Shown here: piece after piece, positions 6,091-37,727 of the stretch
Numbering within the stretch: position 1 is the stretch's first letter
Layout of the letters: the number at the start of each line of letters is the position of its first letter
Source: Curvibacter delicatus NBRC 14919
Lineage (GTDB): Bacteria; Pseudomonadota; Gammaproteobacteria; Burkholderiales; Burkholderiaceae_C
DNA length: 64,000 nucleotides
Reading direction: 5' to 3'
NCBI RefSeq assembly: GCF_001592265.1
Contig: NZ_BCWP01000008.1
Coordinates: 50,655-114,654 of the forward strand
Position numbers and translations under genes: made by a program
The notes under the pieces: generated by a model
What the model was told of the DNA's origin: nothing
The model's database searches: none
What the model saw: only the letters and a program-made list of their open reading frames with translations

Positions 6091-6260
6091 TGGTCATCCC
6101 ACATGCCGGGCATTAACGTTGCCTGCAAATGAGCTCCCGAGCACCTGCATGGCAAACGCCTCAACGGTACATTGGCGCCGGCCAACGCTGGCGCCACAAC
6201 GATCGATGAAGTGGACGGCAGACCCGAGAGCACCCACACAACTTTGTGCGATCGGGTCCT

Positions 6261-7826: not shown

Positions 7827-8725
7827 GCAAGGAGCACCCGTCCAGCAACCTTCAGATGATCCCGATCGACAAGATCGAGATCCTCAACCCGCGTGAGCGC
7901 AACAGCCGGATCTTCGATGACATCGTCGGCAACATCAAAAACATCGGCTTGAAGAAGCCGATCACCGTCACGCCCCGCAAGGACGCCGATGGCCAGGAGA
8001 AATTCCTACTGATCTGCGGCGAAGGCCGGCTGAAGGCATTCAAATCCCTGGGCGAGACGACTATCCCGGCCATGGTCGTCAACGTCAGCGACGAAGAAGG
8101 CTTCATCATGAGCCTCGCTGAAAACATCGCCCGCCGCCAGGGCCGGACCTTAGAGTTGCTGGCAGGCATTGAGCAACTGCGCGACCAGGGCTACGACAAA
8201 AAGGCCATCGCCGAGAAGACGGGACTTGGCCAAGACTACGTCTACGGAATCCTGCAGTTGCTCAAGAATGGCGAGGAGCGACTGTTGATCGCTGTGGAAA
8301 GCGGGCGCATCCCTCTCAACGCCGCCCTGGCCATCGCTGGAGCCGGCAGCAACGACAAGGACATCCAGGCTGCCCTGCAAGAGGCGTATGAAAACGGCCA
8401 GTTGCGAGGCAACCACCTGATCCAGGCGCGCAAAGTCATCGAAAAACGTCGATCCCTGGGGCGGACCATTGCCAGGGGAGCGCCGCGCAAAGTGCAGGAT
8501 GTGACCTCTTCCAGCCTGATTCGGACCTACCAGCACGAGGTCGAACGGCAAAAGCTGATGGTCAAAAAGGCGGAATTCGCCCAGCAGCGACTGCTCTTCG
8601 TCGCTGAAGCCATGCGCCAACTCATGGCCAATGAGAATTTCACCAATCTGCTGCGTGCCGAAGGCTTGGACAGTCTGCCCAAGTACATAGCCGAGCGCGT
8701 CTGGCCCGCGGGAGGCGCTGCATGA
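7823..8725 (+). CDS. ParB/RepB-like protein 1 of the recombinase cassette
   Basis: This 300-aa protein has a ParB N-terminal nuclease-like fold (IPIDKIEILNPRERN, then NIGLKKPITVTPR, then ICGEGRLKAFKSLGETTIPAMVV) and the helix-turn-helix region KAIAEKTGLGQDYVYGILQLL. ParB-type proteins bind specific DNA and may hydrolyse CTP. The GEGR motif corresponds to the ParB box (G-E-R-R in classical ParB). No ParA partner is present nearby, so a normal partition role is doubtful. It overlaps the recombinase gene and the second ParB-like gene by 4 bp each. Confidence 0.8.
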   Translation: MSKEHPSSNLQMIPIDKIEILNPRERNSRIFDDIVGNIKNIGLKKPITVTPRKDADGQEKFLLICGEGRLKAFKSLGETTIPAMVVNVSDEEGFIMSLAENIARRQGRTLELLAGIEQLRDQGYDKKAIAEKTGLGQDYVYGILQLLKNGEERLLIAVESGRIPLNAALAIAGAGSNDKDIQAALQEAYENGQLRGNHLIQARKVIEKRRSLGRTIARGAPRKVQDVTSSSLIRTYQHEVERQKLMVKKAEFAQQRLLFVAEAMRQLMANENFTNLLRAEGLDSLPKYIAERVWPAGGAA

Positions 8726-9603
8726 CCCAAAGCAAGCTGGGATTCATCCCAGATCCGATCACGGTGGCCTTTGACAAGTTACTGCCCTCCCGGAAGGCGC
8801 CCGAAGGGCTGATGAGCTCACGCAAGTTCAAACAGATCATCTCGTCCATCGATACCGTGGGTCTGATCGAACCACTGACGATTGCCAAGGAAGACAAGGC
8901 CACCGGCATGCACCTGCTGCTCGATGGACACATCCGGATGCTCGCGTTGCAGGAACTCGGGTTCACCAACGCGCCGTGCCTGATCGCCAAGGACGACGAA
9001 AGCTACACCTACAACAACCGGATCAACCGGCTGTCGACCATCCAGGAGCACTTCATGATCCGGCGCGCCGTCGACCGGGGCGTAACGCCCGAGCGCTTGG
9101 CGAAGTCACTCGAGTTGGACCTGGAGCACATCACCAAGAAGATCAATCTGTTGGACGGGATCTGTGCCGAGGCGGTCCGACTGCTTCGGGACAAGCACTT
9201 CTCGGCCAACTTGAGCCCAGTGCTGCGCAAGCTCAAGCCGACCCGCCAGGTCGAATGCGTCGAACTGATGGTGGCCACCAACAACATCACCGTCTCCTAC
9301 GCCCAAGCACTGCTGGCGGCCACACCACCCAACATGCTGGTCAACGAGGGTGGCGCCAAGAAGGTCAAGGGCGTGACCCCCGATCAAATGGCGAAGATGG
9401 AGCGCGAAATGGCCAACCTGGAAAGCCAGTTCAAGCTGGTCGAGCAGTCCTATGGGCAGGACGTCCTCAACCTGGTTCTGGCCAGGGGCTACCTGACGAA
9501 ACTGCTGGACAACGAGGCCGTGATCCGCTTCTTATCGCAAAACAACCAGGACATCCTGCGAGAGTTTTCTGGGATCGTCCAAGCCACGGCCCTGGACAAG
9601 TAG
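8722..9603 (+). CDS. ParB/RepB-like protein 2 of the recombinase cassette
   Basis: This 293-aa protein is a second ParB-fold member. The N-terminal domain includes VGLIEPLTIAKED, and LLLDGHIRMLALQELG stands in place of the usual GERR box (here DGHIR). The C-terminal half resembles the RepB partition C-terminal family (HFSANLSPVLRKLKPTRQVECVELMVA). It overlaps the previous gene by 4 bp. Two different ParB-like proteins in tandem behind a serine recombinase suggest they act with it, for example as a DNA-binding scaffold, rather than in plasmid segregation. That is inference. Confidence 0.75.
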   Translation: MTQSKLGFIPDPITVAFDKLLPSRKAPEGLMSSRKFKQIISSIDTVGLIEPLTIAKEDKATGMHLLLDGHIRMLALQELGFTNAPCLIAKDDESYTYNNRINRLSTIQEHFMIRRAVDRGVTPERLAKSLELDLEHITKKINLLDGICAEAVRLLRDKHFSANLSPVLRKLKPTRQVECVELMVATNNITVSYAQALLAATPPNMLVNEGGAKKVKGVTPDQMAKMEREMANLESQFKLVEQSYGQDVLNLVLARGYLTKLLDNEAVIRFLSQNNQDILREFSGIVQATALDK

Positions 9604-11099: not shown

Positions 11100-11465
11100 T
11101 TAATGATCAGCGTCTGACGCTGCCTTCTTGCACCACTCTACAGCTCCATTTTTTATCCAAAAGTGGCAGGAGCATGACCGCTGTTGATGAACAGATGGGG
11201 AGAGCGTCGGCCTACCCCAAAAGTCCGTTTCGATCGACCACCGCGGCCGTCGATCCGGGTTGAGCGAAAGCGAAATCTGGACCCCGCAACCGCCTGGACA
11301 GCTCATGCACGCCCACTTCTTGACGCCGGTGTCGGTAACCAACCAAAGTTCGCCGGGCGGCACGGGAGACTTGCCCGGGTGCTGTGCCACCGGAATAACG
11401 AGCAGGTCATAGTCCAGCCAGCCAAGCCAGCGTAGCGCATGTGCAATGAGTAGCTTCATGGGCAT
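11100..11465 (-). CDS. DUF6527 family zinc-site protein of the ubiquitin-like operon
   Basis: This 121-aa protein has the DUF6527 pattern: a cysteine cluster CMSCPGGCG at about residues 53-61, a tryptophan-rich middle, and SCHFWIKNGAVEWC near the end. The conserved cysteines and histidine suggest a metal site. The family is often found beside bacterial E1/E2-like genes. Its role is not established; a substrate, adaptor or effector subunit is possible. Its ATG (11465) overlaps the stop of the JAB-E1 gene by one base (TGATG), so it is the third gene of a coupled operon. Confidence 0.8.
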   Translation of the reverse strand: MPMKLLIAHALRWLGWLDYDLLVIPVAQHPGKSPVPPGELWLVTDTGVKKWACMSCPGGCGVQISLSLNPDRRPRWSIETDFWGRPTLSPSVHQQRSCSCHFWIKNGAVEWCKKAASDADH

Positions 11466-12868
11466 CAGATCACGCCAAGAAATGGGTTGACATCACCGCG
11501 CCCCCACGTCGCCTGGCTGGCACAAACCGGGCACGAGGCGACAGGCCGGCAGGTCATGGAACGATCCTCCACGCGGTCGAACAGGCGAATCCTGTTGTGC
11601 GTCATGCCCTGGGAGCCTCGGAAGCTGGTCAAGCCCTGAATAAGCTCATCGACGGCGGCGCAGGCAATAGCCGTTGTGAACGTGACCACGGCGGGCGCGG
11701 GATCGCCGCCGCCATCCACATACGCTTCCGCCTTACGCCGCTCAAACTCGGCCGGGTCGCTGCGCCGGAGCCCTTCGGCCGCAGCGCGGAGCGGATCGGC
11801 CACCCCAAGACACATGAGACAGGGATTGCCAGGGCGAATCGTCGACACGCGGCCCGTCATGTCGTAGTCCGCGCCGCTGCGTGCCGCGCGCATGCGCAGG
11901 CCTACATCAATCAGCGGGATGCCGTAGTAGTGGGCCAGGCGGTTGAGCATCAACCGCCCCTGATGGTCGTCGGTACAACCGAACAGCACATCGCAGGAGC
12001 GCAGCAGGTCGAGCAGATCAGGGTGGCCGACCCATTCGTTCTTGGTGACGATCTGGGTGCCGAGGCCGGCCGCGCGAATCTCGCGCGCGAGGATGTCCAC
12101 CTTGGCCAGGCCGGCGGCAACGTCCGCGGCACGCGAGCCATGCACGCGGTTGAGGTTGGTGACATCGATGGTGTCTTTGTCCATCAGCCCCAAGAAGCCG
12201 ACACCGAGTCGCGCCAAAAGCATCGCGACAGCACTGCCCGTGCCGCCGCCCCCTACGACGCCGACCCGCAACGCGCGCACGACAGGATTGAACCCGCGGC
12301 CGAAGAGCGCGGCCTGCCGCGCCAGGAACTGCTCTTCATCAGCTGCAGCCACCGTGCGCGCGATCTTGATCTGGCTGCCTACCAGCGAGATCGAGGATGC
12401 CGTGACCGTCTCGCCGGGTGCGATCCAGAGCCTGCCCGCCATAGCGTCATCGCGGCCGAACACCATGCTGGCGAGGCCGGAAACGCCCTTGTTGAACGTC
12501 GTCCGGGCGAGTTCCTCCTCGTTTCGGTCATCCTGGTCAGAGAAGAACGCTGCGTCGCTCGGATGCGTGTGCACCAAGCCCGCAGCCAAGCCGCGTTCCT
12601 TCGCGATGCCGAGAACACGCATGAAGCCGCGGGTGGACCATGTGACATGGACCGGCGATGCCGAGACCATCTCATCGGCCGCGACGGGGATGACCTCGTG
12701 CGAGATCAGCCTGGTGCGAGGTTGGCCCGACCAGGGGTCCGCTGAGATGTCGGCCCTGCCGAAGAGCACATAGGCGGACGCCTCGGCCCCGTTCTCCCTA
12801 TGCAGCAGCGAGCGCAGTGCCGCCTCGTGCGGCTCCAGTAGGACGATGTCCAGAGCAGCCGGCGACAT
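11465..12868 (-). CDS. JAB deubiquitinase-E1 (ThiF) fusion protein
   Basis: This 467-aa protein has two domains. The N-terminal JAB/MPN isopeptidase has a complete JAMM motif (HTHP, six residues, S, two residues, D; about residues 97-110), so it should be an active zinc peptidase. The C-terminal ThiF/E1 domain has a nucleotide-binding loop VGGGGTGSA (about 202-212), the DKDTIDVTNLNR adenylation segment and FGCTDDHQGR. Two CxxC pairs (CLMC about 348, CPVC about 444) likely bind structural zinc. It would adenylate a ubiquitin-like C-terminus and also trim it. I start it at 12868, where ATG overlaps the E2 gene stop by one base. Longer upstream frames are antisense-type, low-complexity sequence. 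Confidence 0.88.
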   Translation of the reverse strand: MSPAALDIVLLEPHEAALRSLLHRENGAEASAYVLFGRADISADPWSGQPRTRLISHEVIPVAADEMVSASPVHVTWSTRGFMRVLGIAKERGLAAGLVHTHPSDAAFFSDQDDRNEEELARTTFNKGVSGLASMVFGRDDAMAGRLWIAPGETVTASSISLVGSQIKIARTVAAADEEQFLARQAALFGRGFNPVVRALRVGVVGGGGTGSAVAMLLARLGVGFLGLMDKDTIDVTNLNRVHGSRAADVAAGLAKVDILAREIRAAGLGTQIVTKNEWVGHPDLLDLLRSCDVLFGCTDDHQGRLMLNRLAHYYGIPLIDVGLRMRAARSGADYDMTGRVSTIRPGNPCLMCLGVADPLRAAAEGLRRSDPAEFERRKAEAYVDGGGDPAPAVVTFTTAIACAAVDELIQGLTSFRGSQGMTHNRIRLFDRVEDRSMTCRPVASCPVCASQATWGRGDVNPFLGVI

Positions 12869-13797
12869 CACTTCGCCTCCGTCAGGGCGTGCTCGATGCG
12901 CTTGAGCATGGTGTGCAGGCCGTCGATGCCCGGGCGCCACGCCGTGTTGTGGCGCGACCAGCGCTGCCAGTTGCGGCCCTGGAATGCGTGGGCCTGGTCG
13001 GCGCAGGTTGGATAGCGCCCCACGCTTTGCAGCGTCAGCCAGGGGTCGCAATAGAACATATCCGGCGCGACATCGGGATAGCCGGGCGGCAGGAGAACGA
13101 GCACGTCCGCGGCGGCATGGGTGAACTTTCCGGCAGGCAGCGGTAGCTGCTTGAAGATGACGCCCGTGTGCGCGCCGTCGCTCACCATCTCGAAGACCAC
13201 GCCATGGCTGCTCAGATAGCGCTCGTCCGCGTCGGGCAGCGCGAGCAGGCCCTCCGTGGTGTCTCGGATCAGCGTGATGAAGTGCTCGATGCCCGGCTTG
13301 CTCAGGTCGATCAGGTCGCCGTCGCGGATCAGGACGTCCTGACCGCCGCCGCGCACTTCGAGGTAAACGTCGTAGGTCTCCGGCGGGACGCCGGCCAGCG
13401 CCTTGAGCACGCGGCCACTGATGCTGGGCTTGCCCCACTCCAGCTGGCGGTCGTCGATCGTGAACTTGAACGCGCGGTCAGTCTGGAAGATGACGAAACG
13501 CTCCGCGCCGCGGGCGCGTAGATCGTAGGTTTCGTCCAGACGCAAGTCCTCAAAGTCGCCGGAGGTCAGGATCGCGTAGACGCTGTGCTCATCGACCGGG
13601 CGCGCGCCGGCGGTCTGGAGGATCTGGCGCGCTGTCGGCACCGGGTCGGCGAGATCGACTTGACGCTCGTGGAGCTGATGGTCCAGGACGACAACCCGAT
13701 AGAGCGCCGCCGCGCGCAGGCTTCGGCCTTCGCGGATCGCCGCGGCGACATCTTCGACATCGGTGCGGTCATCGCCGCTGTGGGTTTGGGTTTGCAT
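12868..13797 (-). CDS. Double ubiquitin-like domain fused to an E2-like domain
   Basis: This 309-aa protein contains two tandem multiubiquitin-type beta-grasp domains, at about residues 32-104 (YRVVVLDHQ to ERFVIF) and 107-176 (FKFTIDDRQ to EHFITL). A prokaryotic E2 family E-like domain follows (about 185-309) with PPGYPDVAPDMFYCDPWL, then WQRWSRH and a C-terminal helix. Cys250 is the best candidate for the E2 thioester residue. The start at 13797 has AAAGG seven bases upstream; an in-frame ATG at 13824 is an alternative. It heads the Ubl operon, and the 286-bp gap upstream likely holds the promoter. The Ubl domains have no free C-terminus, because the E2 follows directly, which is odd for a conjugating system. 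Confidence 0.85.
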   Translation of the reverse strand: MQTQTHSGDDRTDVEDVAAAIREGRSLRAAALYRVVVLDHQLHERQVDLADPVPTARQILQTAGARPVDEHSVYAILTSGDFEDLRLDETYDLRARGAERFVIFQTDRAFKFTIDDRQLEWGKPSISGRVLKALAGVPPETYDVYLEVRGGGQDVLIRDGDLIDLSKPGIEHFITLIRDTTEGLLALPDADERYLSSHGVVFEMVSDGAHTGVIFKQLPLPAGKFTHAAADVLVLLPPGYPDVAPDMFYCDPWLTLQSVGRYPTCADQAHAFQGRNWQRWSRHNTAWRPGIDGLHTMLKRIEHALTEAK

Positions 13798-14083
13798 TTG
13801 ATTGCCTTTCTTGGGGAGCCCCACCTGCGGGATTGCAGGATTTCTGGCCCTCTTACTCAGTCAATCGCAGTCCCAACACAAACCGGAAAGGCCGGTCAAA
13901 CTTTTTCTTGTACCCACTCGCTCGATCGCATCGATAGCGTTCGAGCGCTTCTTACCGGTCTTGGCGCAGACACCGGCTTCGTGAGCTATTCCATTCAGGC
14001 TGACAATGATCGACGCCGGCCGCGACGTTCGCACGGTGCACGCGTTCTGCTTCCCGGCTAACGGCCTAGGTGGCGTCCATCGC

Positions 14084-14677
14084 TCAGTCCGACAACGCCT
14101 TCAGCGTCGCCTGCTGCTCCGGCGTAAGCTGTGAAGTCGCGACCGCCTGGTCGAAGGTGATCTGTTCGCCAATGCTTGGCTTCACACTTGACCGAAGCGC
14201 GGGACCAGAAACCATGCCCGGCGGACCCTGCAGGTATGCGCCTACAGCTTGGACGGTGGTACCCAGCTCCGACGCAAGGTTCTCGATGAATCGGGATGGA
14301 ATGGTGGTGGCACGGATGGCCCGATCGCGCACGCGCATCAGAAAGAGATTGCTGACATCAAGGCTGCGCGCGAGTGATTTGAAGCTGCTGGTATTCAGCT
14401 TGGCGAACGGATTCGCGACCTCTGCGTCGTGCTGCTGGACAGCTCGCTCGAACCGCTGCCAGGCCGTGTCCACCAAGCTGTCCGGCACTTCGGTCGCCGA
14501 AACATCGGCTGCTGGAAGCTCATGAAGCAGATCGATCGAACAATCGACCAACGCGGTCGCATGTTGTGGGTACTCCCTGATGTAGCGCTCAAGCGTCTCC
14601 CGCCCCTGGCTGGGCTCCATAGAGAACGCCATCAGCACAGACTCTTCGTCAGCAGCGAAAGGCTTTGTTGTACTCAT
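14084..14677 (-). CDS. Unknown 197-aa protein, partner of the sigma-like factor
   Basis: I do not recognise a named family. The N-terminus (residues about 5-60) is acidic and helical. The middle (FKSLARSLDVSNLFLMRVRDRAI and then FIENLASELGTTVQAVGAYL) looks like a helix-turn-helix or related helical repressor fold. The ATG overlaps the stop of the sigma-like gene by 4 bp, and it is the last gene of the AAA-protease-sigma operon. Its place behind a sigma factor suggests an anti-sigma factor or co-regulator, possibly a target of the protease; this is inference only. Confidence 0.6.
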   Translation of the reverse strand: MSTTKPFAADEESVLMAFSMEPSQGRETLERYIREYPQHATALVDCSIDLLHELPAADVSATEVPDSLVDTAWQRFERAVQQHDAEVANPFAKLNTSSFKSLARSLDVSNLFLMRVRDRAIRATTIPSRFIENLASELGTTVQAVGAYLQGPPGMVSGPALRSSVKPSIGEQITFDQAVATSQLTPEQQATLKALSD

Positions 14678-15453
14678 GCGTCACCCTGCAGAACAGTCTT
14701 GAGGGTCTTGTACGCGCGGTCGCGGCGATTGCGTACGGTTCTCTCATCGCACTGGAGCATCTTCGCGATAGTCATGATGTTGGGGTCCTTCGAGTCGATC
14801 TGGAAGCCTTGCTGCAGCAATCCCACGACCCGTTTCTGATCGTCTGGTAATGCATCAATCGCGGCGCTCAACTCCAACCGGAAAGCTGGGTCGTCAATTT
14901 TCTGTGGGTCCCCTCCCAGGAAGTCGGCCGCCGCCTCCTCGACCTCCCGAGAAATCTCCTGACCCGCTTCTCCATCCGCGGCCAGAGGTTCTGTGAGTAC
15001 CGACAAGGGGCCAATCTGCCGCAGCACAGATTTCCGGAATCTGGCGAACGCCAGATCAAACCGCACCTCAAAGAAGTCCAGCATGACGAAACGGCCGTTG
15101 CAGTCCTTGGCGATTCGCTCTGCGAATCGGCCCATGATCTCATCTCGAATGCCTTGCGCCCCGGCCATGCGGGAGTCCGAAACCGTTGCAATCAAAGACT
15201 GCCCGACTCGCTTCATGAGCACTCCGAAAATCTGCTTGAACTCGTTCTTTGAGCCCGTCGCGTGGGCGCGCCGCAGAAAATACGTCAGCGCCTCCGACGG
15301 CACATAGCCCGTACTCTTCCTCGATCCAATGGCAAAGGCCTGCAGGCGGGCCGAGGCATCAAGCGACTCCAGCTTTGTTAAGCAGGCCTCAATCTCGGGC
15401 GGCCGATTGAACGGAGACCCGTGTCTGTCTCTGCTCTTCAACGGTTCCGGCAT
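14674..15453 (-). CDS. Sigma-70-like transcription factor of the protease/AAA operon
   Basis: This 259-aa protein ends in a sigma region-4-like domain (about 195-255): AIDALPDDQKRVVGLLQQGF, then NIMTIAKMLQCDERTVRNRRDRAYKTL. The middle (about 110-150) resembles region 2 of divergent ECF-type factors, with aromatic residues in FFEVRFDLAFARFRKSVL. It begins 53 bp after the protease gene and overlaps the 197-aa gene by 4 bp. It is likely a specialised sigma factor that switches on defence genes. Which promoters it uses is unknown. A sigma factor controlled by a protease would parallel regulated-proteolysis circuits. Confidence 0.7.
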   Translation of the reverse strand: MPEPLKSRDRHGSPFNRPPEIEACLTKLESLDASARLQAFAIGSRKSTGYVPSEALTYFLRRAHATGSKNEFKQIFGVLMKRVGQSLIATVSDSRMAGAQGIRDEIMGRFAERIAKDCNGRFVMLDFFEVRFDLAFARFRKSVLRQIGPLSVLTEPLAADGEAGQEISREVEEAAADFLGGDPQKIDDPAFRLELSAAIDALPDDQKRVVGLLQQGFQIDSKDPNIMTIAKMLQCDERTVRNRRDRAYKTLKTVLQGDA

Positions 15454-15506
15454 CGATCTCCTCCGTGTCGTCAGTCCGTCCTATGCCTGCTCTACTTCGC
15501 TCGCGG

Positions 15507-17729
15507 TCATCGAACGCGGATCGGCAAGGACACCTGCGGCTGGATCGGCACGAGAGTCTTGGCGTAAGCGCGCAGGATGTCGTTGTAGAGATCGGCGTGC
15601 TTCGGGGCTTCAACGGAGAGGATCAGTGCATATCGGATCTTCTCAGCCCCGGTGGCCCGGCCGCCACCATCTCGGGCGTTGTAATGGATATCAAACACAG
15701 GGTTCTTGAGGCTCGCCCCTCGGAAGGTCTTGAAGCCGTGGAGCACGGTTTCCCACTTGCCCTGATCAGACCGGCGCTCCTGCTCAGTGGCAAACTTCTT
15801 TAAGTCGAAAAAGCCCTTGGTGTCGGCATTGCTCTTGCCGTCCTTGACCTTCTCGTCGTTGGGACGGAAGACAATTTCGAGACCGGCCTTGGTGTAGGCC
15901 GCAGCATCCTGGGGATCGGTGGGAGATGCGTAGCAGAAGGTAGCCTTCAAGCGGACATTGCCCGTCAAACCCTCCTTCGGCAGCGGCAAGCTGGCACGCA
16001 GGTATTTGCTGGGTTTGAGCTCTCCTTGGTAGACCACTCGGGCCACACCATCCGGACAGGTGATGATGTCGAAGGTGTCCTCCGGAATCTTGCCCCAGCC
16101 CACCTCGATTGGGTCATGTTTGCCAGGATCGGCCGCATGGACCAACAAGGCCTTGATCGCAAGAGGCGTCAGGTTAGCGCCCAGAATCGCACGGATGCCA
16201 ACTGCACTGCGTAGCAGGTACGGCGCAGCGAAGCTGGTACCGAGCTGTGGTGTCAGGACTGGCTTTGCACTCGGCGCAAGGACATGGAAGTATTTGGACG
16301 CCGGGTTGCCACCAAAGGCCATCAGGTCCGGCTTAACAACGCCAGGGCTACGGCCTGGACCAATCGCGCTGTAAGGTGCGCGCGCCCAACCTGAGCCGGT
16401 GTCATCGGCCGCACCAACCGCGAGCGCATTCACGCAATCCGACGGAACCTGCACACGGCTGTACCCGAGTGCGCGGTCGCGCTCCCCGTTGTTACCCACG
16501 GCGATGGTCATAAGTGTGTCGCCATCACTCAGCAGGTCATCGATAACAGACGTCCAGGCATGGACCTCTTGATCCTCTACTTCGAGCTCAGGCCCCAAAC
16601 TCAGGTTTATGAATTCGTAAGACCGCGACAGAAGAACCTGCTCGATGAGACCGAGCGTGCGATAAAGCTCCAACGGGTCTTCGCCGTTCGATTCCTGGTC
16701 GAGTACACGCAAATGGTCCACTGGGGCAAACGGTCTGGCAGCACTACCGTTAGGCTGGATCGGTCCGAACAGCAGGGCCGACGTTACTCCCAAGCCATGC
16801 TCCGCGCCATGCGGAGCATCCTCAGCGTCCTCGTCGAGCTTTCGGTACGAGCGCAACCAAGGACCGATCGGGTGATGATCTGGCAAGCCGCCATCCAGGA
16901 TGGCAACGCGAGGCTCAGACGAAAGGGCCTGTTCGGTGGGGAGGCTACACCCAACCGAAGGACCACCGCTACGCTGTAAAGGTCGGATACCGCGCAGCTT
17001 AGGCACCGGCCGGATCACACGAACGAAAGCGAATCGCGCCAAGTCCTCCACATCGCTTGGCTTCCCCTCGACCGGAACGAACCACAGGTTGCCGGCGACG
17101 AAATCAAACTCGCTGTGGGTCTTAACGCCCGCACGTTGGGCAAACTTCACGAATGCCTTTTGAACAAGCCCCGGGTCTTCGTCCGGCAGCAGATGAAGAC
17201 CCACTTCGAAGAATCGATCCTTTGGGCCGCCCAGACTAACGATGCGCTCGGCCGGGGCAAACGCAGCGAACTGTTCAATGTGAGTTAGATCACTGCCCTC
17301 GTCAGACTCAGCATCGATAGTTTCCGTCCACTGCGAGAGGTTGCGAAAAGCTTGACGCTTGCCAGCGACGAATAACTCAGTCGTCGTGGTCTCCTGCGGC
17401 TGCCCCTTGCGGGTCCAAGCCTGCGGCTTGACCTTGACGGTACGGCTGCCGATGGACTCCAGCCCCGTGCTACGCAACAGCCCGCTCGGGAAGTAAGAGC
17501 GAGCGATGAAGCTGGGATTCATCATCAACCGCGCCACGACAAAGTCGCCCGGACAAGCGTCAGCTGGCAGTTCATCCAGCGCCTGGGCAGTACGACGGAA
17601 CTGAGGAACCAACAGTTCTCGCGCCTGTGCGAAGGTGTAGACCTCGGCCTTGCCGGGCATGCGCCGCGGTCCGACGATGTCGTGGGTCAGCAGCTCACCC
17701 CGACCGATCAGGAAATTGGCTTGGCTCAT
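15507..17729 (-). CDS. Subtilisin-like serine protease (S8 family)
   Basis: This 740-aa protein has a full subtilase triad: Asp in VAILDGGLPDHH (about 274), His in AEHGLGVTSALLFG (about 309) and Ser in GTSFAAPYL (about 497), plus the oxyanion Asn in AVGNNGE (about 411). No signal peptide is seen at the N-terminus (MSQANFLIGRGELLT), so it should act in the cytoplasm. The first 260 residues are a large non-catalytic region, and the C-terminal 200 residues form another accessory domain. The ATG overlaps the AAA gene by 4 bp. Together these suggest an intracellular protease whose activity is gated by the AAA partner, for example after sensing infection. Confidence 0.88.
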   Translation of the reverse strand: MSQANFLIGRGELLTHDIVGPRRMPGKAEVYTFAQARELLVPQFRRTAQALDELPADACPGDFVVARLMMNPSFIARSYFPSGLLRSTGLESIGSRTVKVKPQAWTRKGQPQETTTTELFVAGKRQAFRNLSQWTETIDAESDEGSDLTHIEQFAAFAPAERIVSLGGPKDRFFEVGLHLLPDEDPGLVQKAFVKFAQRAGVKTHSEFDFVAGNLWFVPVEGKPSDVEDLARFAFVRVIRPVPKLRGIRPLQRSGGPSVGCSLPTEQALSSEPRVAILDGGLPDHHPIGPWLRSYRKLDEDAEDAPHGAEHGLGVTSALLFGPIQPNGSAARPFAPVDHLRVLDQESNGEDPLELYRTLGLIEQVLLSRSYEFINLSLGPELEVEDQEVHAWTSVIDDLLSDGDTLMTIAVGNNGERDRALGYSRVQVPSDCVNALAVGAADDTGSGWARAPYSAIGPGRSPGVVKPDLMAFGGNPASKYFHVLAPSAKPVLTPQLGTSFAAPYLLRSAVGIRAILGANLTPLAIKALLVHAADPGKHDPIEVGWGKIPEDTFDIITCPDGVARVVYQGELKPSKYLRASLPLPKEGLTGNVRLKATFCYASPTDPQDAAAYTKAGLEIVFRPNDEKVKDGKSNADTKGFFDLKKFATEQERRSDQGKWETVLHGFKTFRGASLKNPVFDIHYNARDGGGRATGAEKIRYALILSVEAPKHADLYNDILRAYAKTLVPIQPQVSLPIRVR

Positions 17730-18889
17730 GCGTTAGCCTTTCTCGCTCGTACGCTCTTCCGGGGCGCAGGGATATCGTTGGTGTACTTGCGAATGGTGTC
17801 CCGACTCACGCCCGTGATGTCGGAGACGGCGTGTTGGGACAGGCGAGTCTGCCTGGCCAGCATCACGGCAAGATCGATGCGGCCCTGCCTATCGAGTGCC
17901 AGTGCGCGCGCCTTTATGAAGTCCTCGACCAGATCGGCATCGGTAGTCGTGCCCAGGGCCACAGCTCGCCGGAAACGCTGCACATCGCGCTCGATATCGC
18001 TAAACGAGTGCCCCGCGAATGCAAAAACCAGGATGTCAATCCAGCGCGCAAAAAGGGCGTAGTCCGGCCCTAGGAATCGTTTGATGGCCTCCTTAACGGC
18101 CTGCTCATCAGGCGTCTTGAACTCCACCACCAAATCGAAACGGCGCCACAACGCCGGATCGATCAGCTCCGGGTGGTTTGTGGCCGCCAGCAACACGCTG
18201 CTGGCAGGCCATTCGTCGACCTCCTGCAGGATCACCGTGACCAAGCGCTTGAGCTCGCCCACGTCGGTGTCATCACTGCGACGCTTGGCAATGGCGTCGA
18301 TCTCATCCAACAGCAGCACGCAGGGTTCGCGCTTTGCAAAGTCGATAGCCGCCCGCAGGTTGGCACCGCTTTTACCCAGCAGACTGCTCATTACGGCAGT
18401 CAGATCTAGCACGTACAGCGGCACCTTCAGCTGCGTGGCTAACCAACGTGCCGTGAGCGTCTTACCGACCCCGGGCGGTCCGACAAAGATGGCGGAGCGG
18501 GTCGGGGTCAGTCCCATGGCAAGCAGCCGATCACTCTGTCGCCGCTCGGCAACGAGCTGCCCCAAGGTCTCCTCAACGTCACTGGATAGCAGCGGCGCGT
18601 CTCTCGTCGGTTCGTCTTTAAACAGTTTCAAGAGCGAGAGGCGGGATTCATCATCGACCGGCAGGGCTTGAGCTGTCGGCTGCGAAGGCGAGAACTTGCG
18701 CATGGGTGAGACGCTGCGTGCCGGCTTCGACTTCAGGAACAGCTCGAGTTGCTCAGCCAAGTCGGGCGCCGTTCCGCGGTACTTGCGGACCAGCCGTGCT
18801 GCGAACAGGCGCACATCTTCCGTCTGCTCGGCCAGAGCCAGACGCACCATCTGGGCTAAATCCGCCTGCTCTTCTTTCATTTCGCCCAT
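17726..18889 (-). CDS. AAA+ ATPase partner of the subtilisin-like protease
   Basis: This 387-aa protein has an N-terminal helical domain, Walker A GPPGVGKT (about residue 134), Walker B CVLLLDEIDAIAKRR (about 190), sensor region LLAATNHPELIDPALWRRFD (FtsH/CDC48-like) and a C-terminal helix-turn-helix (SQHAVSDITGVSRDTIRKY, about 350-375). I chose ATG 18889 because the sequence further upstream (in-frame GTG 18934 and ATG 18928) encodes an AT-rich stretch (MIFIYINQQ) that looks like promoter DNA. It is the first gene of the four-gene operon and is translationally coupled to the protease. A remodelling ATPase that delivers substrates to, or activates, the protease is the likely role. Confidence 0.82.
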   Translation of the reverse strand: MGEMKEEQADLAQMVRLALAEQTEDVRLFAARLVRKYRGTAPDLAEQLELFLKSKPARSVSPMRKFSPSQPTAQALPVDDESRLSLLKLFKDEPTRDAPLLSSDVEETLGQLVAERRQSDRLLAMGLTPTRSAIFVGPPGVGKTLTARWLATQLKVPLYVLDLTAVMSSLLGKSGANLRAAIDFAKREPCVLLLDEIDAIAKRRSDDTDVGELKRLVTVILQEVDEWPASSVLLAATNHPELIDPALWRRFDLVVEFKTPDEQAVKEAIKRFLGPDYALFARWIDILVFAFAGHSFSDIERDVQRFRRAVALGTTTDADLVEDFIKARALALDRQGRIDLAVMLARQTRLSQHAVSDITGVSRDTIRKYTNDIPAPRKSVRARKANA

Positions 18890-18909: not shown

Positions 18910-18941
18910 TTATATAGATAAAAATCATGTCCACTTTGGAC
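18910..18941 (-). promoter_or_regulatory. Candidate promoter/operator of the AAA-protease-sigma operon
   Basis: Upstream of the chosen AAA start, the minus strand has an AT-rich -10-like TATATA. Next to it is an inverted repeat GTCCA-CTT-TGGAC at 18929-18941 (5-bp perfect arms), a candidate operator. The whole non-coding gap to the BREX helicase gene is about 130 bp, so promoter and operator must lie here. Confidence 0.45.
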
Positions 18942-19018
18942 TAAGATGATTATCCCACAAATCAAAGCAAGACTGACTAACGACGCCAAGGTCAGTGACG
19001 GTGATGCTTTTCGACTGA

Positions 19019-21037
19019 CTAGAGCGTGGACACAAACAAGCGAGCAGCAATAGTGCGAGAGAGGAGGTCTGCAGGCACACAGTCTGCAAACTTGACTCCA
19101 TCGGCCAGCTGCGCGACATCCTCCAAGGTCAGCTGGGCACCTGACTCCTTGCTGGTCTGGGAAGCCAGTAAGGCTGCCGGCGCCTGAACGCTGAGCGCGT
19201 CAAATTTGACCTTCCTCCCCGCAGACGAAGCGGTACGGGCATAGGTCCGGTTCTGCTTTGTGCCGGCAAAGGTCCAGGTGCGAACCTGATTGCCTTCAGC
19301 TCTGGTCATGAAGTCGGCGTCTGGAGACAACGCCAGTTCCTCCTGCAACGCAGAAAGCTCGGACTTGCCACGTAACGAGAGGTGGACTGCGGGCGGCACT
19401 CCGTGAATGAGGGCAGCCCGAATGCCCTGGCAAACCTCACGGCTCAGGCTGCGGGCACCGCCCATCCACCGAGCCTTGCCGCCTTCTTTCGCCGGCTCCA
19501 GCCAGACGATCTTTTTGGACCACTCGATTTCTTTGACCGTCCAGCTTCGACCCGCCAAGAGCAAGAGCCGCTGAGGTTCATCACCAGTAAGTACCGTGGG
19601 GTCGATGTAGCCCACCTCGGCACTGCCATGCCGGCCAGTCAGGAGTTGCGCCCCACTGAATGACGCCAACAGGTCTCGGTAATGCCCACGGCCGTAGTCG
19701 CGCTCAGCCTGGGGACCGATACGCAACAGCCCCTCGCTGGAATCCAGGTACCCCTGCTGCACCATATGGGTCACCATCAACTGAAAGCCGTCTTCAGGCA
19801 ACTCAGGGAAGCAGCGCGACAAAAGTGCGATGACATCGCTGGCTGGCCACTCACCGTGCTCCAGTGTGGAAACGAGGATTTGTTGCCCAACGATGGGCCA
19901 GGGCTCATCCGGAGGCCGCGCCGATTCGACCCAAGACTGGGACCACAGCTGAGTGACTCCCAAAGCCAACATGAAAGCATCCTGGTTCGTCGTGAGGAAC
20001 AAGCAGTTCCTCACACCGCCCGTCCTCCGCCCGGTTCGCCCCATGCGCTGAAGGAAGGACGACACCGTGGACGGCGAATCGATCTGAATCACACGATCCA
20101 AATCTCCGACGTCGATGCCCAACTCCAGAGTCGATGTCGCAACGATCACGCAGTCCTTTTCTTCAGCGAATGCCGCTTCGGCCTGCTTGCGCTCCGCCGC
20201 GCTCAGCGATGCATGGCTCACGAAGGTCCGGACATCCTTGGCGCGCAACATACTGCTCAGCTGTTCTGCGCTGCTGCGTGAATCGCAAAACACCAGCCTT
20301 TTTTCACCTCGGTGGAGGCGCGAAATCACCGTTGCTGCGTTTTCGAGGCTGCCTACGTGATCGATCGTGACATCGGCATCGGTGCTTACGGTGGCGGTAC
20401 CGACAACCTGCCGCGCCCCCACTGGCGCGAACCATTGCAAAAGCTCTTGTGGGTTGCTGACCGTTGCAGACAGACCGATTCGTTGCAGCGGTTGCGGCAG
20501 GTAATGCTCTAGCCGCTGCAGTACCGAACGCATGTGCCACCCCCGATCATCAGCGGCAAAGGCGTGCAGCTCATCCACCACAACGGCCCGCAGATTGCCA
20601 AACCAGGTTGGCCGATCCACGCGCACGGAAATCAGCATCGCCTCAATGGACTCCGGCGTCGTCAGAAGAATGTCGGGCGCCTCTTTCATCGCCTTCATCT
20701 TCCGCGACTGCGAAACGTCGCCGTGCCAAACCGCTACTGTTCGACCCACCAGTCCAGCGTAATGGGTCAGTCTCTGCTCAAGATTGTTGAGCAGCGCCTT
20801 GATGGGGCAGATGTACAAGACACTGGTGCCCGCCCAAGACTCTCTCAACATTTTGGACAGGATCGGGATGGCTGCCGCCTCCGTCTTTCCGCCCGCCGTA
20901 GGTGCCAGCAACAGGCAGTGTGCTCCGGCATGAATCGGCGCAATGGCCGCCAGCTGGGTGGGACGCAGGGTACTCCAGCCCAGCGTGTTGACGACGTGGT
21001 ACTGAAGGGATGGGTGCAGCTGCTCGAATTCGCTCAC
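19019..21037 (-). CDS. brxHI: BREX type 2 helicase BrxHI (Lhr-like DEAD/DEAH)
   Basis: This 672-aa superfamily 2 helicase has Walker A LLLAPTAGGKT (residues about 43-52), motif II VVDELHAF (DELH, about 155) and motif VI-type QRMGRTGRR. The early QxxAI pattern fits the Lhr-like group. It is the last gene of the BREX operon and overlaps brxD by 4 bp. In type 2 BREX, BrxHI is one of the six defining genes; its exact step in blocking phage replication is not settled. Confidence 0.9.
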   Translation of the reverse strand: MSEFEQLHPSLQYHVVNTLGWSTLRPTQLAAIAPIHAGAHCLLLAPTAGGKTEAAAIPILSKMLRESWAGTSVLYICPIKALLNNLEQRLTHYAGLVGRTVAVWHGDVSQSRKMKAMKEAPDILLTTPESIEAMLISVRVDRPTWFGNLRAVVVDELHAFAADDRGWHMRSVLQRLEHYLPQPLQRIGLSATVSNPQELLQWFAPVGARQVVGTATVSTDADVTIDHVGSLENAATVISRLHRGEKRLVFCDSRSSAEQLSSMLRAKDVRTFVSHASLSAAERKQAEAAFAEEKDCVIVATSTLELGIDVGDLDRVIQIDSPSTVSSFLQRMGRTGRRTGGVRNCLFLTTNQDAFMLALGVTQLWSQSWVESARPPDEPWPIVGQQILVSTLEHGEWPASDVIALLSRCFPELPEDGFQLMVTHMVQQGYLDSSEGLLRIGPQAERDYGRGHYRDLLASFSGAQLLTGRHGSAEVGYIDPTVLTGDEPQRLLLLAGRSWTVKEIEWSKKIVWLEPAKEGGKARWMGGARSLSREVCQGIRAALIHGVPPAVHLSLRGKSELSALQEELALSPDADFMTRAEGNQVRTWTFAGTKQNRTYARTASSAGRKVKFDALSVQAPAALLASQTSKESGAQLTLEDVAQLADGVKFADCVPADLLSRTIAARLFVSTL

Positions 21038-22344
21038 AGCTCGATGTCGTCCACGGAATTCGCACTGGCCGCCGCACGCTCGGACGCGGACATTTCGCTC
21101 TCGGAAAGCGTAAGCGAATAGTGCTGCCGCGGATCAAAGTCCGGATGCAAGTCCACTCGATCCAGAACGTCTGCCACCAGCTTCTTCAAAAACAGCCGCG
21201 GTGCCACGCCGACCTTGCCTCCGAGCCCCCCCGCCACGGCACGGGCGAGGGTGTCCAGGTATGCGTCATCGACAACCGATCGCAGGCGAGTTTCGTTCGC
21301 CCGCCCCTCCGCGTAGATGTCACGCACGCGGCGCCCGACGGACAAGAGCGCTGCATGGTCAAACGGCGCCAGTCGGATCTGCACCGCGCGGGGGTTGTCG
21401 AACCTCCGGTCAGTGCCAAAGTCAACATGCAGTCTCTGCGCCAGGGGGGCCAACCGCTGTACGCCCTGTGGACCGTCATAGAAGGCAGGTGTACCGGTGA
21501 TGACCAGGTAGAGCCCAGGGTAGCGACCCGCATCAATCTCATCGATCCACTGCCGCAGAGCATTGAGCCCCTTTTCGCGAGTGTCGGTACGCATGCGCTG
21601 CAAGGTCTCTACTTCATCGAGAACCAGCACCAACCCAGAGAAGCCGCTGTCACGCAGGATCGTGAGCAGGCCAACCAGGAAGTTGCTGGCCCCAAAGTGG
21701 TCCAAATCGCCCTTGATACCTGCGGCACGCTTGACGCTGGCCGCCACGTTAGGCTGACCTGCCAGCCAGCTGATCAGACCCTCGGCCAGCATGCCGTCGT
21801 TGCTCGCCAAAGCCTGGCGATAGGTTCGAAGCACAGCGGAGAACGCCGGTGCCGTCTTGCTGATGGTGCTCAGGCGCGCCTCCATGAGCGCATCCGTCCG
21901 CTTCAGAAGGTCTTGCGCATCGTCCGGGTCTACCGAAGGGTCCGCCAGAACATCCTGCTCCAGCGCGTAAAACCAGCCGTCAATCACGCTTCTGAAAGCA
22001 CCGCTGGCCATGTCGGCCGTCCCGAGGTGCTCTACCAGGCGCCGATAGACCGTTTCCAGCCGATGCAGGGGTGTCTCGGTTTCATTGATCTGTACCTCTG
22101 TTGCGGCGAACCCTTTGCTGCGCGCCCGCTCCTGCAGCCAGCGGCCGAAAAAGGTCTTGCCAGTGCCGTACTCGCCGCGGACAGCCTTAAATCCTCCGCG
22201 GCCTGTCGCCACCAAATCGAGCTCTTCATTGAGGGTGGACGCAAACGTCTCAATCCCAACGGCAAGCGCATCCAGGCCACTGTTGGGCACAGTGCCACGG
22301 CGCAGAGCGCTGACGATGTCTTCCCGTCGAGCTGCGCTGATCAT
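21034..22344 (-). CDS. brxD: BREX type 2 ATP-binding protein BrxD
   Basis: This 436-aa P-loop protein has Walker A RGEYGTGKT (residues about 56-64), Walker B LVLVLDEVETL (about 238) and the sensor segment YLVITGTPAFYDGPQG, which is typical of BrxD. It starts MISAARREDIVSALRRGTVP, as family members do, and has normal length. Its ends overlap pglZ upstream and brxHI downstream by 4 bp each, so the three are translationally coupled. Confidence 0.92.
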   Translation of the reverse strand: MISAARREDIVSALRRGTVPNSGLDALAVGIETFASTLNEELDLVATGRGGFKAVRGEYGTGKTFFGRWLQERARSKGFAATEVQINETETPLHRLETVYRRLVEHLGTADMASGAFRSVIDGWFYALEQDVLADPSVDPDDAQDLLKRTDALMEARLSTISKTAPAFSAVLRTYRQALASNDGMLAEGLISWLAGQPNVAASVKRAAGIKGDLDHFGASNFLVGLLTILRDSGFSGLVLVLDEVETLQRMRTDTREKGLNALRQWIDEIDAGRYPGLYLVITGTPAFYDGPQGVQRLAPLAQRLHVDFGTDRRFDNPRAVQIRLAPFDHAALLSVGRRVRDIYAEGRANETRLRSVVDDAYLDTLARAVAGGLGGKVGVAPRLFLKKLVADVLDRVDLHPDFDPRQHYSLTLSESEMSASERAAASANSVDDIEL

Positions 22345-25040
22345 GACAATCCCCCCTGCGTAGGCAACCTGAACTGCTGGCGCAGCAGGGTCATGTTGAG
22401 TTCAACTGATCCTGCGGTCTCATCAACGGTGAGCACCGGTGCCTGGTCTACGTTCAGCATCCGTCGCACGGCACTCAGCAGCCCACCCATCCGAACCTCG
22501 GCCAGCGACAGCCGATTTGCCAAGGCCGTCCGAGACAGCTTTCCACCACGTTCCGACAGCGCCTCGAGCAGCAGCCTCATCTTGTCGTCGGGCAACGCGA
22601 CACGTGCTGCCAGTTGTCGCTGCGAGGCGTAAATCGGACTGGCCAGCAGGAGCCCAATCCAGTCTTGGGGGGCGCTGTCAGCTGTTGACGGCGGCAAATC
22701 GACAGCGGCAAACAGCCCTGGCTGCGCTTCTGTCGGCACCGTCTTCTTGCGTGTGGGCTTGGCTTGCGGAGCTGCCACAGCGACTGCGCCTTTGGGCTGT
22801 AGAAATGGCGGCAGTTCCCACCAATCCGGTTGAGTGGGTGGAGCGGGATTCCAGCCCGGGAGGTTCGAGCCCAGGGGAGCGAACAGGCTTAAGGGCACCG
22901 TCAACTCCTGCGGTGACAGGCCGCCGTGGTAGCCGTTCTTGCGGCCCGCATACCGGCTGCTTTCCCCCCAAAGGCACACCACCGCATTCGAGCCATCGCT
23001 GGTGACCACGCGCCCCCCGCTGACGGCCATTTCTTGGGGTGAGGCGGCGGTACGTCCCAAGCGCCAGCGATCACTCTCCCCGCCCGGAATCTGCGTCGTG
23101 CCATCTTCCAGCAGATGACCGTGGTCCGCAGTGATGATCACCACGCGACGGGCTTCACGCGCCTCGCGCAACAAGGGCAACAGCAGTCGCAGATCCTCCA
23201 ATGCCCATCGCTGGTTCAGTTGATCAGGCCCGCTGAGATGATCGTCCACCGCGTTGTAGACCACCCCGACAACCTGCTGCTTCGGGTTAGCGATGGCCGA
23301 ACGAACTTCCGATGCAAGACTTCCGCCGTCGGCCAAGTCCCCCTTGTGAAAGAGCTTGGGGGCAAGTTCCGCTCGACTGACAGCCATCAGCGCCGGATGC
23401 GACGCAAATCCGGGCTTCTCTTGCGCCTGGTTACCGGTGGTCAGCCGCCCACACAGCAAGCTGGTCCGACTGACCTCGGTGATCGTCGGGATAGCCGCCA
23501 TTCCAACGAACGGCATGCCCTGCGCGGTCGGCACCAATTCAGTCCAGCCGTGAGTGGATGCCCGTGCAAACAGTTCGCGGAAGATGCTGTTGCTCAAACC
23601 ATCCATCACCAACAGCAACGTGGGTTGAACTGCCGCAATCGGGGCGACCACACGCTCCAAAACCTGCTCGAGCAGGACAACTCGACCGCTGTTAGCGGGG
23701 GGCTGAGTGTTCCACTGCACGAGCGCATGGGCAAAAGACTTGGCGAATCCATCCCGCCGAGCAATCGCTGCCCGGCGACAGGCAGCATAGGCCTCGGACA
23801 ATTCGCTGAGTTCATCCCCACCCAACAACCTGAAGCGGGCCCAATCCACATAAGCCCCCTCGTCCGCTTGCCACTCAACGGCATCCGGCAACGCCGCCCC
23901 TGAAGGCATCGGACTGATGAGCCAGCGAGCCAGGCGCCGCGCCATTTCGACACGCTCCTTGCGGGGAAGCTGGCTATTCATCAGCATGTGCCTCAAGGCA
24001 CGGTCAGCATGCAACTCCACCTGCTGCAGGTTCGCTTCGGTGGGCTCCGCTGCATGGGTACTCAGCGCCACCGCAAAGTCCGTCAGGCGTTGATCCAACG
24101 CCAACGGCAGGACATCGCTCAAATGCGCAAACTCCGAGATCCGAAGATCCTGGAGCAAGGCATCGGCGCGATCCAGTGCCGCACGACAGCCCTCCACACC
24201 GAGACTGCGCACGACCCGCTCCGCAGCCTCCGCCCACTCACGGCCTTCCTTGACGCCCACGTGCTGGTCATTGACGAACCGCTCCAGACGAATGGCCGCC
24301 TGACCCAAGGCCGTTTGCCCTTCGCCGTCGGGGGCGAAGATCACACCACTGACCAGTCCCAGGGACAGTGCATCCCCTGTACGTCCAGCCTGGATACACC
24401 CCAACACCATGGCGCCAGCAGCGCCGGATGTCTCCGCAAGCCAGCTCAAGATGGATGCCCGCATCGCAGCCGGCAAAGGCCCCAGCCTGGCCTCAGCCTC
24501 GGGCCTCAATGACCAGGTAAGCAAACTCACTGCGTCTGGTCGAGCCACCTCGATCCCCAGGAATCGGGCTAAAACCTCACGCCAGGCCGTCTCCAAGTCC
24601 AAAAAACCGTTGGCCACTGGCTGGTAATCACCCTGGGCCGCGCCGTCGATCAGGGCTTGAGGCATCCAGGCAAACCGGCCCAAACGCGCGTCCGTCTCCT
24701 TTGCCTGGAACATCACGCGGACGATGTCCCATCCTTCCGGCTGAAACACCCGGGCACGGGCCAAACGGGCTGCAATGTCCTCGGCTACTTCATGGGTGGA
24801 CAGTGGAGTGATCACCACCATGCCGGTGGTCGGATGCTTATGCTGTTCCAGTTCGCACAGAGCCTCGCGAATCGCCAGCGACGATTCGCACCACCGAATC
24901 GCAAACGGCCTTCCCAACGGACTGATCGAGTCCGGCCAGGCCTGTTTTGCCGTCGCTCGGATCGCAACCGCCTGCGCTGCCGGATCGCTGTCCAGCACGC
25001 GCTCCAGCTGCGCTTTGATCTGAGGCGTGGACAAACTCAT
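22341..25040 (-). CDS. pglZ: BREX type 2 phosphatase-like protein PglZ
   Basis: This 899-aa protein has an alkaline-phosphatase-superfamily core. A metal/nucleophile segment LLLVMDGLSNSIFRELF lies at about residue 475 and the second metal site VIITADHGHLLEDG at about 637. PglZ is the hallmark protein shared by all BREX types and is needed for defence. The 4-bp overlaps with pglY and brxD keep the operon tight. The C-terminal 200 residues contain a helical, winged-helix-like region (LAARVALPDDKMRLLLEALSERGGKLS), common in type 2 members. Confidence 0.93.
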   Translation of the reverse strand: MSLSTPQIKAQLERVLDSDPAAQAVAIRATAKQAWPDSISPLGRPFAIRWCESSLAIREALCELEQHKHPTTGMVVITPLSTHEVAEDIAARLARARVFQPEGWDIVRVMFQAKETDARLGRFAWMPQALIDGAAQGDYQPVANGFLDLETAWREVLARFLGIEVARPDAVSLLTWSLRPEAEARLGPLPAAMRASILSWLAETSGAAGAMVLGCIQAGRTGDALSLGLVSGVIFAPDGEGQTALGQAAIRLERFVNDQHVGVKEGREWAEAAERVVRSLGVEGCRAALDRADALLQDLRISEFAHLSDVLPLALDQRLTDFAVALSTHAAEPTEANLQQVELHADRALRHMLMNSQLPRKERVEMARRLARWLISPMPSGAALPDAVEWQADEGAYVDWARFRLLGGDELSELSEAYAACRRAAIARRDGFAKSFAHALVQWNTQPPANSGRVVLLEQVLERVVAPIAAVQPTLLLVMDGLSNSIFRELFARASTHGWTELVPTAQGMPFVGMAAIPTITEVSRTSLLCGRLTTGNQAQEKPGFASHPALMAVSRAELAPKLFHKGDLADGGSLASEVRSAIANPKQQVVGVVYNAVDDHLSGPDQLNQRWALEDLRLLLPLLREAREARRVVIITADHGHLLEDGTTQIPGGESDRWRLGRTAASPQEMAVSGGRVVTSDGSNAVVCLWGESSRYAGRKNGYHGGLSPQELTVPLSLFAPLGSNLPGWNPAPPTQPDWWELPPFLQPKGAVAVAAPQAKPTRKKTVPTEAQPGLFAAVDLPPSTADSAPQDWIGLLLASPIYASQRQLAARVALPDDKMRLLLEALSERGGKLSRTALANRLSLAEVRMGGLLSAVRRMLNVDQAPVLTVDETAGSVELNMTLLRQQFRLPTQGGLS

Positions 25041-28732: not shown

Positions 28733-28735
28733 TCT

Positions 28736-28852
28736 TCAGCTCCTCCATTGTTTTTTCAGCGGCCTGTTTCTCTTGGTCTCGACGCATTGCATCTGCAGGT
28801 CAGTCGGTCCCGCCACGGGTGTGCGGCGTTGATAAATCGGTGTCACTTTCAT
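28736..28852 (-). CDS. Possible 38-aa ORF coupled between pglX and pglY
   Basis: An ATG at 28852 overlaps the pglX stop (ATGA). The frame runs for 38 basic residues (MKVTPIYQRRTPVAGPT...KKQWRS) to a TGA at 28738-28736, four bases before the pglY start codon. It carries the pglY ribosome-binding site at its end. It could be a small protein or just a leader that couples translation of pglY to pglX. No family is recognised. Confidence 0.35.
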   Translation of the reverse strand: MKVTPIYQRRTPVAGPTDLQMQCVETKRNRPLKKQWRS

Positions 28853-32427: not shown

Positions 32428-32438
32428 GTCAGGGTCTT

Positions 32439-37265: not shown

Positions 37266-37727
37266 ATGACTGAGCCCAAGACACCCAAAAAACGAACGGC
37301 AAAGGAGTTACCTGGCAGCCCGCAGGGACCTGCATCACCCAGAAAAAGAAGGGTCAGCCAACCCCGTCAAAGGGGTGTGCGAAAGGTCAAACTGAACTTC
37401 AACGTTGCAGAGCAGATGCGCAAAAAGCTCGAAATGGCCGCACAGCGTCACGATTCGAGCCTTTCCGATCTCCTGACAGGAGCGGTTCAGAGGTGCCTCA
37501 AAGACGACGTCTGGGACCCCAGGGCCCGCAATGCGGTTTCACGAAACAGAACCATCGTCCCACCCGCAGAGCTTGTGGATATCTCCAATCAGCTGTTGGC
37601 GCTCGGTTTTCTTCTGGAGCAGTTGATCAAGGCACCGACAGACCCCAAACTGATCGAAGAGGCTGCACGGATTCATCTGGATGCTCGATTGCACTTGGCC
37701 AAATTGCGCGAGGACCACGGGTGCTGA
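37266..37727 (+). CDS. MobC-like relaxosome accessory protein
   Basis: This 153-aa protein has a very basic N-terminal tail (about 40 residues rich in Lys, Arg and Pro). A ribbon-helix-helix-like region (VRKVKLNFNVAEQMRKKLEMAAQRHDSSLSDLLTGAV, about 38-75) and a C-terminal helical part follow. MobC-type proteins bind oriT and help the relaxase nick it. The next gene is a relaxase and overlaps by 7 bp, which supports the call. An unrelated RHH regulator is the main alternative. Confidence 0.65.
   Translation: MTEPKTPKKRTAKELPGSPQGPASPRKRRVSQPRQRGVRKVKLNFNVAEQMRKKLEMAAQRHDSSLSDLLTGAVQRCLKDDVWDPRARNAVSRNRTIVPPAELVDISNQLLALGFLLEQLIKAPTDPKLIEEAARIHLDARLHLAKLREDHGC

Follow-up and report, generated by a model that had tools for sequence, protein, structure and literature searches.

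What does a defence-island locus encode when four adjoining genes, for an AAA ATPase, a subtilisin-like protease, a sigma-like factor and a 197-aa protein (p197), look like a system of their own? Such a set lies in a 64,000-nt stretch of contig NZ_BCWP01000008.1 of Curvibacter delicatus NBRC 14919. This whole stretch is called the window, all coordinates without a locus handle are window positions, and the studied genes are all on the minus strand. An earlier note on this DNA had presented the four genes as a candidate undescribed system, situated between BREX genes and a separate ubiquitin-like (Ubl) operon. Comparison with related loci showed them to be no separate system: a conserved operon of eight genes begins with them, and it is the Ubl operon itself, of which they form the front. 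The case is a caution that a four-gene "system" called in a defence island may turn out to be half of a larger operon.

The four genes within a conserved operon

The locus set consisted of the best 80 of 104 confirmed relatives of the sigma-like protein, collected from genome contigs with an alignment of that protein, and the neighbourhoods were sorted by profiles. The p197 gene directly followed the sigma gene in 79 of the 80 loci, and the contig of the remaining one ended there. The usual order after p197 was a gene fusing Peptidase_M78 (IrrE-type), UvrD helicase and PD-(D/E)XK domains, followed by the poly-ubiquitin-like (polyUbl), E1 and DUF6527 genes. A fusion of at least 900 aa was recorded in 69/80 loci, most of the other 11 being cut by the contig end, while Ubl and DUF6527 were seen in 68/80 and 66/80, respectively. 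The genes of the ATPase and the protease (IetA and IetS, together IetAS) stood directly upstream of sigma in 25 of the 80 loci and were absent in 45, the contig being too short in 10.

All eight genes, in the order IetA-IetS-sigma-p197-M78/UvrD-polyUbl/E2-JAB/E1-DUF6527, were seen in 17/80 loci, 16 of them found by script and one (L030) added, as its sigma reading frame overlaps IetS. Two of the 17 were irregular, L019 with a split IetS and L031 with an IetS only 25% identical to that of the window. The latter protein (L031:1974-4319) occupies the usual eight-gene position and is possibly a replacement of the protease. The window keeps the eight-gene order, with the M78/UvrD gene reduced to a scar:

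18938..18963, minus strand: conserved 26-bp element upstream of IetA, a candidate sigma promoter or operator (regular-expression match and score)
17726..18889, minus strand, reading frame open to GTG 18934: IetA-like AAA ATPase (PADLOC IetA 2e-81; PF00004 3.4e-30; NCBIfam IteA 234.8 of 510 bits)
15507..17729, minus strand: IetS-like subtilase, triad D279/H311/S499 (PADLOC IetS 2e-42; PF00082 E 1.2e-19)
14674..15453, minus strand: sigma-like factor, predicted extracytoplasmic function (ECF) type (PF08281 1.1e-4, under the cut-off; AlphaFold2 model with a mean pLDDT of 78; fold searches)
14084..14677, minus strand: p197, a 197-aa helical protein with an XRE/DdrO-like helix-turn-helix (HTH) at about residues 85-153, the proposed sigma partner
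13921..14083, minus strand: scar of the M78-protease/UvrD/PD-(D/E)XK gene (tblastn and blastn against relatives)
12868..13824, minus strand: polyUbl carrying two Multi_ubiq domains and, fused to them, a Prok-E2_E domain without an invariant Cys (PF14452 2.6e-43; PF14462 6.4e-55)
11465..12874, minus strand: JAB-E1 (Prok-JAB and ThiF), JAMM residues H102, H104, S112 and D115 (PF14464, PF00899)
11100..11465, minus strand: DUF6527, Cys/His-rich and probably metal-binding (PF20137 3e-24; alignment)

An open reading frame check confirmed that all four genes of the earlier note are intact and lie where it had placed them, and that the AAA/protease and sigma/197-aa pairs each overlap by 4 nt. The ATG at 18889 was preferred as the start of IetA over the frame-opening GTG at 18934, since the conserved promoter-like element lies at 18938-18963. 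The four genes do belong to one conserved unit; it does not end at 14084, however, and the operon continues through the Ubl genes to 11100.

The part formed by sigma, p197 and M78/UvrD (the head) was also followed outside this set. Among six plasmid-borne sigma relatives, p197 and then a UvrD-type gene came next in 6/6 and a multiubiquitin-E1-DUF6527 cassette after them in 5/6; IetAS was not found within the stretch of these six. In a phylum sample of the kind used for IetS below, polyUbl was detected in 15 genomes, the one of the window included, and the other 14 carried the head in five cases and IetAS in none (one contig was too short). The sigma gene itself was found in only 2/369 genomes of the class, one of them the window's own. 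In front of two further E1/JAB operons, in L028 (L028:14867-17515) and L101, the head is seen as well; that of L028 is of a different kind and lacks Multi_ubiq. In two acidobacterial loci without IetAS a double-AAA protein is encoded right after DUF6527 (L076:17909-20032 and L082:17908-20031; Pfam for L076).

The IetA-IetS pair and the two cassette forms

A reading of the AAA-protease pair as new was not supported; the PADLOC models IetA and IetS cover most of both window proteins. The ietAS pair is a known defence system, the naming and origin of which reportedly go back to Gao et al. in 2020. The window pair resembles it in having an AAA ATPase followed by a translationally coupled S8 protease and in matching the PADLOC models, but differs in falling far under the NCBIfam equivalog cut-offs (IteA 234.8 vs 510 bits, IteS 104.6 vs 900 bits) and in being built into a sigma/p197/Ubl operon. 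Judged by sequence, it is a distant branch of the ietAS (IteA/IteS) family, homologous and outside the equivalog. The complete catalytic triad claimed for the protease was borne out when the window protein was aligned with 23 relatives: D279, H311 and S499 were kept in at least 95% of the 24 rows; no export signal was seen by eye in its sequence. The HTH at the C-terminus of the ATPase was recovered as a weak match to HTH_3, whose E of 0.0078 does not reach the Pfam cut-off.

A tblastn search with IetS returned 46 plasmid records, 28 of them at 80% coverage or more, and 18 neighbourhoods were opened. Ubl-conjugation genes lay beside IetAS in six (L097, L098, L101, L148, L149 and L150) and in none of the other 12, one of which ends at the record start. 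By Pfam, L097 and L098 carry XRE, M78 and Ubl/E1 genes, the JAB match of L098 being weak (E 0.006), and L101 has a sigma-like gene, M78-UvrD, JAB and ThiF, with a 207-aa protein that matches the p197 profile at 6e-14. IetS homologues were present in 6/398 genomes of the phylum, the window's own included; neither sigma, p197 nor Ubl was found near IetS in the other five, two of which have it on short contigs. Seen from the AAA-protease side, the co-occurrence expected of a four-gene system was therefore not obtained: sigma and p197 are absent from most such loci, being present in 1/18 plasmid neighbourhoods and 0/5 other genomes of the 398. From these counts it was concluded that IetAS is mostly independent and that there is more than one way in which it has been combined with Ubl operons.

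A single clade for the Ubl-linked IetS proteins was considered and rejected, as a 25-row tree required three changes and placed the solo L094 and L095 as sisters. In the same tree L093 fell weakly inside the linked group and L031 stood apart on a very long branch. The plasmids of L094 and L095 bear, by annotation, a divergent caspase-family operon beside IetAS.

From the Ubl side an association was seen. Two cassette forms follow the head: loci with IetAS encode polyUbl fused to Prok-E2_E together with JAB-E1, and loci with a DUF6791-E1 encode polyUbl without E2 or JAB. When loci with both ends resolved were compared, the window and plasmids among them, IetAS was found in 21/25 E2+JAB loci vs 0/40 DUF6791-E1 loci with 3.6 kb of upstream sequence; for genome loci having the E2+JAB cassette and upstream sequence the count was 20/24. 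The Fisher value of 2e-13 for this association is overstated, because the loci share ancestry and are not independent events. AbiEi/AbiEii genes lay directly upstream of sigma in 15/43 DUF6791-type loci with more than 2.2 kb upstream (for instance L006, L046 and L058) vs 0/26 IetAS loci, which suggests that the place upstream of sigma is an effector slot. A PD-(D/E)XK nuclease gene, detected with a 129-aa fragment as the query, was observed near the polyUbl operon in 20/47 DUF6791-type loci (e.g. L006:14347-14735), often with a second UvrD-type gene.

The sigma-like protein, p197 and the lost M78/UvrD gene

The sequence matches of the sigma-like factor lie under both the Pfam (PF08281 1.1e-4) and the NCBIfam cut-offs, and a search of PDB sequence profiles yielded FliA (E 0.0071), more weakly a non-sigma protein, and nothing else. 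The structure model spoke in favour: sigma chains were the best fold-search matches of the AlphaFold2 prediction, and a Sigma4 domain was recognized. For the Sigma2 region the model has helices at 53-147, the rows matching both domains gave root-mean-square deviations above 11, and the Foldseek E-values were 0.05 or higher. The protein models as a predicted ECF-type sigma factor with a possible Sigma2 domain. The p197 protein has a putative HTH resembling XRE/DdrO; the Pfam scan revealed no anti-sigma domain in it, and its search against PDB sequence profiles gave nothing convincing. PADLOC has no family for either protein. A scan of viral contigs with the sigma alignment produced 30 pattern matches, none of which was confirmed, and p197 had no match in phage records.

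The 26-bp element upstream of IetA was matched by a regular expression in 18/24 IetA-IetS loci, window included. The misses were L013, L020, L022, L023, L025 and L031, and for L022, L023 and L025 among them the alignment contains a shortened form of the element. The best match in the window scored 27.9 bits and the next best 10.4, and the element occurs as a single copy in the 3.76-Mb genome with up to two mismatches allowed. Element sites scored 28.7-36.0, whereas no score exceeded 14.9 in 42 DUF6791-type loci or 14.1 in nine further IetAS neighbourhoods. It was not found upstream of sigma in DUF6791-type loci, nor in sigma-bearing loci lacking IetAS; its user could therefore be sigma, p197 or the IetA HTH, and it was considered a candidate sigma promoter or operator.

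In the window only 259 bp separate p197 from the Ubl gene, and all that remains of the M78/UvrD fusion is about 29 codons of its start and a fragment of its 3' region. The fragment lies in a different frame and corresponds to the L011 protein at residues 1021-1055. The HExxH motif of M78 is present in 73/74 full-length fusion proteins. An M78 protease adjoining a putative HTH protein, as in CapH+CapP, is encoded in the intact relatives and is replaced by the scar in the window. A search of the genome for a second copy of M78/UvrD yielded nothing but three generic helicases at 30-33% identity. The only other M78 protein found there (G000:C17:34999-35343) is unrelated and is a candidate for acting on p197 in trans. 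Losses of the M78/UvrD gene that look independent were seen in L034 and L017, both beginning, like that of the window, close to codon 28; in L017 IetS is broken too. With its putative sensor-protease gene lost, the window copy of the operon would be silent or constitutively expressed, unless a different M78 protease drives it.

A proposed mechanism, its rivals and known systems

It was proposed, with a probability of about 0.5, that the eight-gene operon senses damaged DNA, frees its own sigma factor through a predicted cleavage of p197 and then degrades Ubl-tagged proteins. Infection or DNA damage would engage the helicase-nuclease and activate the fused M78 protease, which, being part of that fusion, would sit on damaged or phage DNA. 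The protease would cut p197, which has a DdrO-like HTH and is presumed to hold sigma inactive until then, and free sigma would transcribe the operon from the element upstream of IetA. The E1/JAB cassette would attach and remove polyUbl, while IetA would unfold and IetS cleave the tagged proteins, or the pair might act as a killing effector. We know of no described targets of the ietAS and polyUbl operons. In favour of the mechanism were counted the 17 eight-gene loci, the tie of IetAS to the E2+JAB form and its place beside Ubl/E1 genes in other arrangements, the HExxH motif of the fusions, the XRE + M78 pairs that some sigma-less polyUbl cassettes carry, the head in front of two other E1/JAB operons, the DdrO-like HTH of p197 and the single-copy element. 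The solo occurrence of IetAS shows that a link between tag and protease is not obligatory.

An AAA ATPase, a protease, E1, Ubl and JAB in one operon recall the proteasome, the tag-protease link being putative. A fuller version of this analogy was considered doubtful. In it, a single inducible defence operon would give bacteria their own form of the ubiquitin-proteasome system, with a polyUbl tag, E1, an E2-like domain, an Rpn11-like JAB, IetA as unfoldase and IetS as protease of the tagged proteins, and a protease-helicase-nuclease that senses DNA damage would turn it on by releasing a dedicated sigma.

Two rivals of the proposed mechanism survived as possibilities to which tentative weight was given. 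One holds that p197 is itself a DNA-binding repressor of the CapH/DdrO kind, that M78 lifts repression by cutting it, and that the sigma-like protein is merely an activator. The XRE-like HTH of p197 agrees with this, as does, judged by eye, the placing of the best-conserved bases of the 26-bp element between the sites where -35 and -10 boxes normally stand. XRE + M78 pairs also take the place of the head in other polyUbl loci: sigma-less cassettes with a separate pair were identified by Pfam in L097 and L098, by annotation in L148 and L150, and by the M78 profile, with XRE seen by eye, in L136 and L142. A dedicated sigma-like gene is, however, coupled to p197 in 79/80 loci, which suggests a direct partnership.

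The other regards sigma/p197/M78-UvrD as a shared DNA-damage switch and IetAS as a stand-alone killing effector in an exchangeable slot, blind to the Ubl tag. The AbiEi/AbiEii genes found in that slot and the mostly solo life of IetAS speak for such an arrangement; yet IetAS also adjoins sigma-less polyUbl cassettes (L097, L098, L148-L150), and among sigma-family loci it accompanies only the E2+JAB form.

It was considered very unlikely that infection activates IetA-IetS and that IetS then cuts p197, as the earlier note had suggested. A protease freeing sigma from its 197-aa partner is a sensible type of model, and the adjacency and translational coupling in the window fit it, but the subtilase is not supported as the cutter, because 45 of the 70 loci with enough upstream sequence keep sigma and p197 without IetAS and the M78/UvrD fusion is nearly constant (69/80). 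A chance placement of ietAS beside an unrelated Ubl operon, for which the BREX genes next door could be cited, was rejected on account of the same gene order in genomes of many families.

Among the closest known systems are ECF sigma/anti-sigma pairs such as SigE-RseA. The window sigma shares their Sigma4 fold and small coupled partner gene and may share Sigma2; the partner differs in its XRE-like HTH and in having no anti-sigma Pfam domain.

If the proposed mechanism is true, a single inducible anti-phage operon lets bacteria attach and remove Ubl tags and unfold and degrade proteins, under the control of a sigma factor that is released through a DNA-damage-sensing protease. The ietAS and polyUbl operons would gain a common, testable pathway, and the frequent M78 proteases in polyUbl operons would be explained.

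The modules taken singly have been described. The polyUbl cassette is the type 6e operon of Iyer, Burroughs and Aravind 2006 (PMC1779556), the parts consulted describing polyUbl, in some cases fused to an inactive E2-like domain, a JAB-E1 fusion and a metal-binding protein, as well as a variant E1 with another domain where JAB stands. The window contains the corresponding tandem Ubl domains fused to an E2-like domain, JAB-E1 fusion and metal-binding protein, DUF6527 presumably being protein Y of that operon. The E2-like domain of the window has no catalytic Cys: no Cys is kept at 95% or more, and none is common to the window and the 11 relatives shown. It differs in the added control head and IetAS; the terms "sigma factor" and "AAA" are absent from the main text of that paper as far as consulted (PMC1779556). 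The CapH+CapP pair (XRE + M78) is described as activated by single-stranded DNA and as controlling immune operons; in Bub and Bil operons, which CapH+CapP, CapW or CapK+CapS control, a Ubl pathway likewise stands under DNA-damage-activated control that includes an M78-type protease (PMC13373217, in the parts consulted). The present operon type differs in that its M78 domain is part of a helicase-nuclease fusion and in its sigma-like factor. The M78 metallopeptidase IrrE/PprI of Deinococcus senses DNA damage via single-stranded DNA and cleaves the HTH repressor DdrO, an account that, in the sections consulted, involves no sigma factor and does not mention a protease-UvrD fusion (PMC10904395). 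Among the open-access full-text matches listed, neither an ietAS-sigma-polyUbl operon nor a sigma factor controlled by M78-UvrD was described; as far as these matches show, the joining of IetAS and polyUbl to a sigma-p197-M78/UvrD head is not in print.

The BREX genes that adjoin the operon at 19019-36716 encode BrxHI, BrxD, PglZ, BrxC, PglX and PglW (PADLOC). The island is flanked at 6246-9603 and 37493-38425 by a recombinase, ParB/RepB-like proteins and a weak relaxase match, which suggests a mobile element.
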